Positions 1,137-37,236 of a stretch of DNA of 46,745 nucleotides are shown piece after piece. The position numbers and the translations under genes are program-made. The DNA is taken from contig JAEINL010000025.1 in NCBI GenBank assembly GCA_016342655.1, positions 1 through 46,745 of the forward strand, read 5' to 3'. Positions within the stretch are counted from its first letter, which is position 1. Every line of letters starts with the position of its first letter. Below the pieces are notes generated by a model. That model made no database searches. It was not told where the DNA came from and saw only the letters and a list, made by a program, of their open reading frames with translations. The stretch comes from Sphaerochaeta sp. (GTDB taxonomy: Bacteria > Spirochaetota > Spirochaetia > Sphaerochaetales > Sphaerochaetaceae).

Positions 1137-1277
1137 GTCGTACACGCTGAAGATTGAATGCCATCCTCAGATTGTTTATACTAGCTATTCTATTTGGGTA
1201 TCCATGGTTCCCTTTGCGAAGGCCTTCTCCCAAAATGTTGCATTAGGGGAGTTCTTGGAATTGTCGCAAAGCTCATT

Positions 1278-1432
1278 CCCCAACGAAGCGAGAGTAGTGG
1301 AAGCATTACCATGTTTCCATTACCGAGCGAGTGCTGGGAAAGCAAGGTGAGATACGTGAGCCCCTTGGCTCTGAAAAGGAGGCAACGCCTCCTCTTTCCA
1401 GGGCTTGCCCTGGGGTATTGATACCTTTCATT
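1278..1432. repeat. Structured dispersed repeat, copy 1 (~155 bp)
   Basis: First of three copies (others 21665-21812 and 37018-37172), all in the same orientation. It starts with CCCCAACGAAGCGAGAG after a TCATT (1273-1277) and ends with GGTATTGATACC plus TTTCATT. It contains consecutive hairpins: GGAAGCAT-TACC-ATGTTTCC, GGAGGC-AAC-GCCTCC, CCAGGGC-TT-GCCCTGG and GGTAT-TG-ATACC. Its end coincides with the stop codon of the minus-strand ATPase gene, whose TAA (1431-1433) uses the trailing bases. Removing the repeat would still leave that TAA, so the gene is not altered. Confidence 0.85.
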
Positions 1433-3337: not shown

Positions 3338-3363
3338 AAAAAAAGCCGTTGCTTAGCAACGAC
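3338..3363 (-). terminator. Rho-independent terminator of tRNA-Ala
   Basis: Read on the minus strand: a GC-rich stem (GTCGTTGC, loop TAA, GCAACGGC) followed by a run of T (complement of the A-run at 3338-3344), directly downstream of the tRNA 3' end. Confidence 0.85.
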
Positions 3364-3370
3364 TTCTTAG

Positions 3371-3444
3371 TGGAGGTAAGGGGAATCGAACCCCTGACCT
3401 TTTGAATGCCATTCAAACGCTCTAGCCAACTGAGCTACACCCCC
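3371..3444 (-). tRNA. tRNA-Ala (anticodon GGC)
   Basis: 74-nt cloverleaf. Acceptor GGGGGTG pairs with TACCTCC, giving a G3:U70 pair, the identity element of tRNA-Ala. D stem is GCTC/GAGC, anticodon arm TTTGA-ATGGCAT-TCAAA with anticodon GGC, T arm AGGGG-TTCGATT-CCCCT, discriminator A; CCA is not encoded. A good promoter lies just upstream and a terminator downstream, so this is the functional copy. Confidence 0.96.
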
Positions 3445-21437: not shown

Positions 21438-21961
21438 ATGGGAAATCAAGATCCCCTTGTTGATGCGTATATAGCACAGTTCTCAGAAGAGCAGCAGAGC
21501 CATTTGAAGGCACTGCTGCTCTCTCATCCATGAGACAGTCCCCCAAGTGATGGAGACTATCAAGTATGCGATGCCCACTTTTTTATATGAGGGTAATCTG
21601 ATCTACTTCGTGGCAAATAAAAATCATACTGGTCTGTACTCGATGCCCAGTGGGGTTTCTCATTCCCCAACGAAGCGAGAGTAGCACAAGCATGCTTCTA
21701 TTACCGAGCGAGTGCCGGGAAAGCAAGGTGAGATACGTGAGCCCCTTGGGACGGAAAGGAGGCAACGCCTCCTCTTTCCAGGGCTTGCCCAGGGGTATTG
21801 ATACCTTTCATTTTGCTGAAGAACTGCTTTCTTACCATACAGCCAAGGGTGCGATACAGTTTTCCCTAGACAGACCTCTTCCCCTTGATCTTATCCGCAG
21901 GATCATTCTCTTCAGATTTGAGGAAAATGAACGATTACAGCAGACTAAGAAGAGAAAGTGA
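21438..21961 (+). pseudogene. DUF1801 (YdhG-like) gene, frameshifted and split by repeat copy 2
   Basis: The ATG at 21438 starts a DUF1801 protein (VDAYIAQFSEEQQSHLKALL), which shifts frame near 21525: the reading resumes as TVPQVMETIKYAMPTFLYEG after a small indel. After SMPSGVSH the 148-bp repeat interrupts it, and the 3' part continues FAEELLSYHTAKGAIQF, SLDRPLPLDLI and so on to TGA 21961. Joining across the repeat gives SGVSHFAEELL, the expected family sequence. Both lesions make it non-functional. The family is small (~130 aa) and has been linked to iron handling in some bacteria. Confidence 0.8.
21665..21812. repeat. Structured dispersed repeat, copy 2 (148 bp), inserted in DUF1801
   Basis: Same element as at 1278 and 37018, flanked by TCATT on both sides (21660-21664 and 21808-21812). 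The first hairpin is shortened to AAGCATGCTT, and one arm of the CCAGGGC/GCCCAGG stem carries a mismatch; the GGAGGC/GCCTCC and GGTAT/ATACC hairpins are intact. Removing 148 bases restores the DUF1801 frame exactly, so the boundaries are known within the 5-base TCATT ambiguity. Confidence 0.9.
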
Positions 21962-36998: not shown

Positions 36999-37017
36999 TC
37001 TGTTTGTTGTTTTCATT

Positions 37018-37172
37018 CCCCAACGAAGCGAGAGTAGCAAAAGCATTACCATGCTTCCATTACCGAGCGAGTGCCGGGAAAGCAAGGTGAGATACGTGAG
37101 CCCCTTGGCTCTGAAAAGGAGGCAACGCCTCCTCTTTCCAGGGCTTGCCCTGGGGTATTGATACCTTTCAAT
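37018..37172. repeat. Structured dispersed repeat, copy 3 (~155 bp)
   Basis: Best preserved copy. Left flank TCATT (37013-37017), right end TTTCA then ATT. Hairpins: AAGCAT-TACC-ATGCTT (37041-37056), GGAGGC-AAC-GCCTCC (37118-37132), CCAGGGC-TT-GCCCTGG (37138-37153), GGTAT-TG-ATACC (37154-37165), plus GAGCC-CCTT-GGCTC near 37099-37112. It sits between two convergent operons and damages no gene. Confidence 0.85.
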
Positions 37173-37236
37173 TCCTACCAGCTTACCAGAAAAAAGAGAG
37201 CCTCGTGGGAGGGCGATTTCACTATAAGTAGATTCC

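Follow-up and report, generated by a model that had tools for sequence, protein, structure and literature searches.

The 46,745-nt stretch of Sphaerochaeta DNA analysed here (the window) carries three copies of a structured element of about 155 bp, which we read, with a probability of roughly two in three, as a PATE-like element without a transposase of its own, mobilised in trans by an enzyme of the HUH/Y1 type. The element is non-coding and belongs to a large and real family, whose copies are dispersed in unique flanks and have defined ends, a defined target, a clean empty site, a conserved secondary structure and a bias toward one replication strand. A fixed target, the lack of duplication, paired ends and a strand bias are together the signature of the IS200/IS605 (HUH Y1) elements, and the family is non-autonomous mobile DNA working like an IS200/IS605 derivative, with a candidate for its mobiliser. 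No published description of the family was found in the literature searched, which leaves most of the subscription journals outside, while its mode of working is already known from IS200/IS605.

All three window copies are on the plus strand, at the places and in the single orientation given in the original prediction, as confirmed by the sequence itself and by the matches of a covariance model (1271-1433, E 1e-42; 21658-21813, E 1.4e-37; 37011-37173, E 3.8e-41), copies 2 and 3 being part of the training set of this model and copy 1 being outside it (Table 1). Copy 2 splits a DUF1801-type reading frame, and the right junction of copy 3 reads TTTCAATT in place of TTTCATT.

Table 1. Copies of the element in the window, and the parts of copy 3 (window positions, forward strand)
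Feature	Position	Strand	Description
Copy 1	1277..1431	+	Complete, 155 bp; preceded by CTCAT
Copy 2	21664..21811	+	Complete, 148 bp; preceded by CTCAT; within DUF1801-type reading frame
Copy 3	37017..37171	+	Complete, 155 bp, reading TCCCC...CTTTCAA, with an A where the right junction normally has T
Left target motif of copy 3	37012..37016	+	TTCAT (family consensus TTBAT); host flank; from the sequence, the 109-copy flank profile and another copy's empty site
Left-end domain of copy 3	37017..37081	+	Closing stem TTCCC (37016-37020)/GGGAA (37076-37080); inner stems; AAGCAT/ATGCTT hairpin
Right-end domain of copy 3	37084..37167	+	AAGGT (37084-37088)/ACCTT (37163-37167) enclose hairpins 37098-37112, 37117-37133 and 37138-37153
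Right-terminal signature	37152..37171	+	GGGGTATTGATACCTTTCA(T); best-kept part in distant spirochaete relatives

The family is well represented in the genome from which the window comes (3.9 Mb, 161 contigs), where, with up to one mismatch allowed, there are 154 matches to the right-end signature and 124 to the left-end signature, and none to the reversed control patterns of either; at least 40 copies, among the BLAST matches listed, are 93-100% identical to the query. When 100 related genomes are considered, the own genome counted, 17 are positive by BLAST and 18 by the covariance model, and in an even draw of the phylum, under stricter filters, 4 of 296 genomes are positive, one of them weakly (E 4.6e-4). 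At least 69 stretches come from a named genome collection, and those listed are all records of Sphaerochaeta or of other spirochaetes; the right-end pattern has no exact matches in viral contigs, and the element has no matches in the phage and plasmid collections. It is the 3' end that is kept best, with partial BLAST matches at about query positions 127-166, at 93-100% identity, in three of the genomes (G061, G080 and G087).

As to the ends and the target, the 109 copies possessing both ends reveal a left flank of T (73%), T (94%), B, A and T, the base B before ATT being C in 48%, T in 31%, G in 20% and A in 1% of cases, and a fixed right end, CTTTCAT, followed by T in 93%, with scant signal further out. 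The claim that every copy follows the same TCATT is correct for the three window copies but does not extend to the family, in which the motif is TTBAT, with the junction before the T that comes next. The accompanying claim, of no variable target duplication, is supported by the flanks of the 109 copies along with an empty site in the same genome. One copy there (L049) is inserted between CTATTCAT and TTGTTAAG, within a tnpB-remnant leader that is also present, uninterrupted and with a gapless junction, at L040/L036 (84% identical) and at L043/L035 (83%). When the flanks of another copy (L053) are joined, they restore an ORF for an OppD-like ATPase, whose alignment with a solved homologue spans the junction and differs in length by one residue, and the joined flanks of copy 2 restore a DUF1801 fragment, which can likewise be aligned past the junction with a solved homologue (E 5.8e-4), its Pfam score rising from 22 to 44 bits. 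From the empty site and the restored ORFs together it follows that insertion brings in the element alone, without any duplication. Four short variants (L109, L112, L151 and L303) begin at the second module (ATTCCCGAGCG) and have TTCAT, TTGAT, TTGAT and TTTAT, respectively, as their left flanks; this start is a second kind of left end, placed at a regular target.

The row of hairpins with compensating changes, originally seen in the three window copies, holds for 34 diverse copies of the family. In the structure of 47 pairs and nine helices, 93.7% of the cells are paired, a figure biased towards the structure by the selection of the copies and the drawing of the structure by hand, the compensatory counts being the stronger evidence. 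Changes on both sides of a pair are found in 78 cells, versus a mean of 21 in shuffled alignments and 18 at most in slid versions, and compensatory changes are present in all nine helices; pairs with a change on both sides number 16, versus 10.8 when shuffled, and 16 was reached by one of 500 shuffles. TTCCC/GGGAA forms the closing stem of the 5' half (TTCTC/GAGAA in G080) and AAGGT...ACCTT that of the 3' half, with three hairpins inside, and distant members of the family gain or lose hairpins. RNAalifold alone produces a 32-pair version, from which the third right-hand hairpin is absent.

Orientation of the copies tends to follow the replication strand. It is the G-rich strand that serves as template for the lagging strand, and in a sample of 41 stretches from four genomes, containing 71 copies (hits of at least 70 bp), the strand bearing TTBAT is the G-rich one for 52 copies, and for 27 of the 32 copies at which the absolute skew exceeds 0.04. 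Skew at third codon positions agrees with the TTBAT strand in 50 of the 71 copies, and the main gene strand in 39. Motif supply fails to explain the bias, because the bare motif is found on the G-rich strand in only 52% of cases (p 2e-4). By genome (a hand tally), the agreement is 21/27 in G000, 19/23 in G003, 5/6 in G001 and 7/15 in G029. The mutual orientation of neighbouring copies provides another measure: 40 of 48 neighbouring right ends in G000 (first 100 of 154 sites) are co-oriented, a count not reached in 200,000 shuffles, whose maximum was 39, and earlier lists gave 22/25 for G000 (p 5e-5), 11/14 for G003 (p 0.025) and 3/4 for G056. No strand bias is seen in G029 (7/15 by skew, 2/5 neighbours) or in G080 (1/4 neighbours). 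Among the known elements, IS608 and ISDra2 reportedly favour the lagging-strand template (PMC5371812).

In the mechanism we propose, the element would represent a structured left end joined straight to a structured right end, with no coding content. An HUH/Y1 transposase, acting in trans, would fold the strand that carries TTBAT while it is exposed, single-stranded, as the template of the lagging strand. The left cut would fall 3' of TTBAT and the right cut 3' of the terminal TTCAT, and the cut strand would be pasted 3' of another TTBAT, nothing being duplicated. The closest known elements are PATEs (palindrome-associated transposable elements) and other non-autonomous IS200/IS605 derivatives, with an end hairpin of 20-25 nt. 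Like PATEs, the element described here has its left end joined to its right end without a cargo, it is inserted 3' of a fixed short motif without target duplication, it possesses hairpins near its ends, with the secondary structure conserved at both, and it displays a fork-strand polarity, in that its orientation follows the lagging-strand template in the skew sample as a whole and, by neighbours, in G000, G029 and G080 being without it. Unlike in PATEs, its ends are multi-branched domains of about 65-85 nt, and no autonomous partner with these ends was found at the loci examined: they are absent from 17 TnpA/TnpB loci of the own genome, save for the separate insertion in L049, and from 11 TnpA loci of relatives. 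Thus, of the suggestion of a PATE-type IS200/IS605 derivative, the part concerning the way of working stands (target motif, empty site, structured ends, strand bias), and derivation from a particular autonomous IS is no more than a possibility; the search that accompanied this suggestion, for tnpA, tnpB or iscB genes with matching ends, produced none at the TnpA/TnpB loci examined, with the IscB-type family under its cut-off in ten genomes.

We infer that the mobilising enzyme is of the Y1 type. More tentatively, the candidate in Sphaerochaeta is a RAYT-like Y1 protein whose gene adjoins, as read by eye, a dprA-like gene. This protein (L033) is 269 aa long, it matches PF01797 and contains motifs NHYH and YIVRNP, and it scores 61 bits with the NCBIfam RAYT model, under the model's cut-off of 80. 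A RAYT-like gene is present in 14 of the 18 element-positive versus 12 of the 82 element-negative genomes (E <= 0.001; Fisher 4e-7) and, within the genus, in 9/10 versus 4/16 (p 0.004), statistics that ignore kinship, and the co-occurrence may reflect shared ancestry. The gene is absent from G080, with at least 29 copies of the element and a completeness of 97%, and from G041, with one copy (99% complete), and it is also missing in two element-bearing genomes that are less complete (G021 and G087), while four genomes of the same genus (G005, G016, G020 and G024) possess the gene and do not possess the element. By its NHYH and Y---NP motifs, assessed by eye, L033 belongs with class 2 of TnpAY1 proteins, perhaps with subclass 2.1, in the scheme of PMC6006769. 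Subclass 2.1 is described there by NH[YF]H, Y---NP and a C-terminal helix-turn-helix extension, and no REP-like sequences are reported in that text near the genes of this subclass (PMC6006769); in L033, Y1_Tnp is the only domain that Pfam recognises at E up to 0.01, the C-terminal part giving no match.

Another comparison is with the REP/REPIN sequences and their RAYT (TnpA-REP) proteins, and with the TIRYT or TnpAY1 subclass 2.1 group. The likeness is in the many structured non-coding copies, in the presence of a RAYT-type Y1 gene in most of the carriers, and in a GTAG preceding an inner hairpin in the window family. However, a REP/REPIN is defined as a palindrome of 20-40 nt with an unpaired GTAG or CGTC tag (PMC3733652), whereas the element, at 155 nt and nine helices, is no short palindrome with an unpaired tag; its GTA pairs with TAC and covaries with GGA/TCC. 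The RAYT genes, unlike those of REP systems, are not flanked by the element, with no model hits at 21 loci and a single 21-base match, in L177. If the Y1 reading is true, spirochaetes hold a large family of mobile elements that move as single strands and have elaborate ends, and there may now be a candidate substrate for those RAYT-type enzymes for which no repeats are known; if it fails, some other mobiliser, perhaps an RNA-based one, has spread more than 100 copies in one genome.

Several other explanations must be weighed against the same data. The original prediction considered a guide RNA along with a PATE, and this half of it is not supported. On the minus strand, the copies were expected to be followed by ATGA/GTGA or by NTGA; ATGA follows 49 of the 109 copies (counted from the trinucleotide list), and the others mostly have flanks of the ATAA or ATCA type. 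The element thus resembles HEARO and the IscB/IsrB omega RNAs in being repeated and structured and in standing beside a short motif, but this motif is variable, and the HEARO covariance search proposed at the outset gave no match in the window at the gathering score, none round copy 3 at E up to 10 and none in seven loci of relatives at E up to 5, the Rfam searches at gathering and relaxed thresholds detecting only tRNAs and matches under the gathering score. The IscB-type RRXRR family (PF14239) has no match in the own genome and exceeds its cut-off in none of ten element-bearing genomes, with one match under the cut-off, in a 1403-aa open frame of G003 (L270, G003:C38:158041-158262), perhaps, at a guess, a Cas9-like protein. 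Membership in the HEARO/IscB-IsrB group was rejected on these grounds (no model match, a motif that is not fixed, the enzyme under cut-off in ten genomes), and we regard an omega RNA read on the minus strand as extremely improbable. It had been stated correctly that no TnpA, TnpB or IscB is encoded in the window: the 7 PF01797 and 12 PF07282 matches of the own genome are all on contigs other than the window's contig (C133). It seems very unlikely as well that the family derives passively from a TnpB (IS605-type) element, with its structured right part as the TnpB guide RNA and its right flank as the guide. TTBAT does resemble the left motif, or TAM, of TnpB elements such as ISDra2, the structured right end abuts the flank directly, and copies are present near three TnpB remnants (L049, L276 and L277), those at L276 and L277 being complete short copies, as read by eye. 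Against this, 11 of 15 genomes that bear the element have no TnpB, none of ten own TnpB loci examined has the element's end, five of them (L039, L040, L041, L042 and L048) sharing another end, CCCATCGG...GGGTAAGTCAC, and the copy in L049 is, from the empty-site comparison, a separate insertion. Membership in the TnpB reRNA group was rejected for the absence of the enzyme from these 11 carriers and of a matching right end; some function of an element transcript is possible. A conserved cellular RNA or a terminator, copied by other recombination and retained for its function without being mobile, would agree with the strongly conserved structure, but it is highly improbable in view of the unique flanks, the insertions inside reading frames, the clean empty sites, the patchy distribution and the absence of a tie to the gene strand.

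Copies lacking the left end are not directly predicted by a two-ended cut-and-paste. Such copies make up 35 of 184 right-end sites, with varied break points, a proportion that is no rate, as 22 of the regions were fetched for want of an exact left end, and 10 of the 35 are palindromes, short left-end variants, an internal deletion, an IS110 case, or doubtful. Among the G000 sites read, which were hand-picked and represent part of the unmatched sites, 16 right ends are without the left part (18 counting both arms of a palindrome, L278), 5 left ends are without the right part, and 3 more enter other sequence at contig ends. In the 41 stretches unselected for truncation, 66 full copies and 14 pieces are present (6 right-end, 5 left-end and 3 internal). 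The truncations could have arisen by deletion after insertion, by one-ended events or by RNA-templated insertion, any one of which would be sufficient. The last of these might extend to the family as a whole, if a reverse transcriptase recognising the conserved 3' domain were to copy plus-strand RNA into fork-exposed TTBAT sites, in the manner of SINEs, a reading that we consider unlikely. It is in agreement with the better conservation of the 3' end, with the right ends devoid of a normal left end, with the prevalence of left-part over right-part loss among the hand-picked G000 sites, and with the fork-strand bias, which some group II introns show too. However, the target motif is not clearly kept at the truncated left junctions (6 of 25 versus 2.9 expected, p 0.06, 10 of the 35 being left out), right-end and left-end pieces are nearly even in the unselected stretches, and there is no target duplication. 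A test of the strand by its G-U and A-C pairs points neither way, with 62 G-U versus 30 A-C cells, yet 20 versus 19 pair types, and the folded molecule may be DNA or RNA. That the element is a true bacterial SINE, a structured 155-nt RNA that a host reverse transcriptase copies, by way of its conserved 3' domain, into the TTBAT sites of the fork, leaving both full and 5'-truncated copies, appears slightly less likely still.

The palindrome mentioned above (L278, G000:C22:12393-12442) is made of two facing right ends, nearly perfect over about 50 bp and with no left end. A 1.7-kb form (L078) was considered as an autonomous copy and rejected, as it is an insertion of the IS110 family within a copy of the element, with the transposase gene (NF033542; G087:C10, 728-1870) located at a hairpin loop. 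A similar end inside another copy is seen, by eye, at a contig end of G000 (L292, C79), and IS110 elements may target the hairpins of the element. At two further contig ends of this genome (L288 in C10 and L290 in C65), two copies enter an identical unrelated sequence, which suggests another multi-copy insertion sequence inside copies of the element. In the window, a partial copy of a tRNA-Ala gene (1058-1136) is 93.7% identical to the intact tRNA-Ala(GGC) gene at 3370-3444, the matching part being 3358-3434, and between the two are copy 1 and a 451-aa ORF, ATPase-like by eye; the tRNA-Ala repeat, copy 1 and the ORF look like a small tRNA-targeted island.
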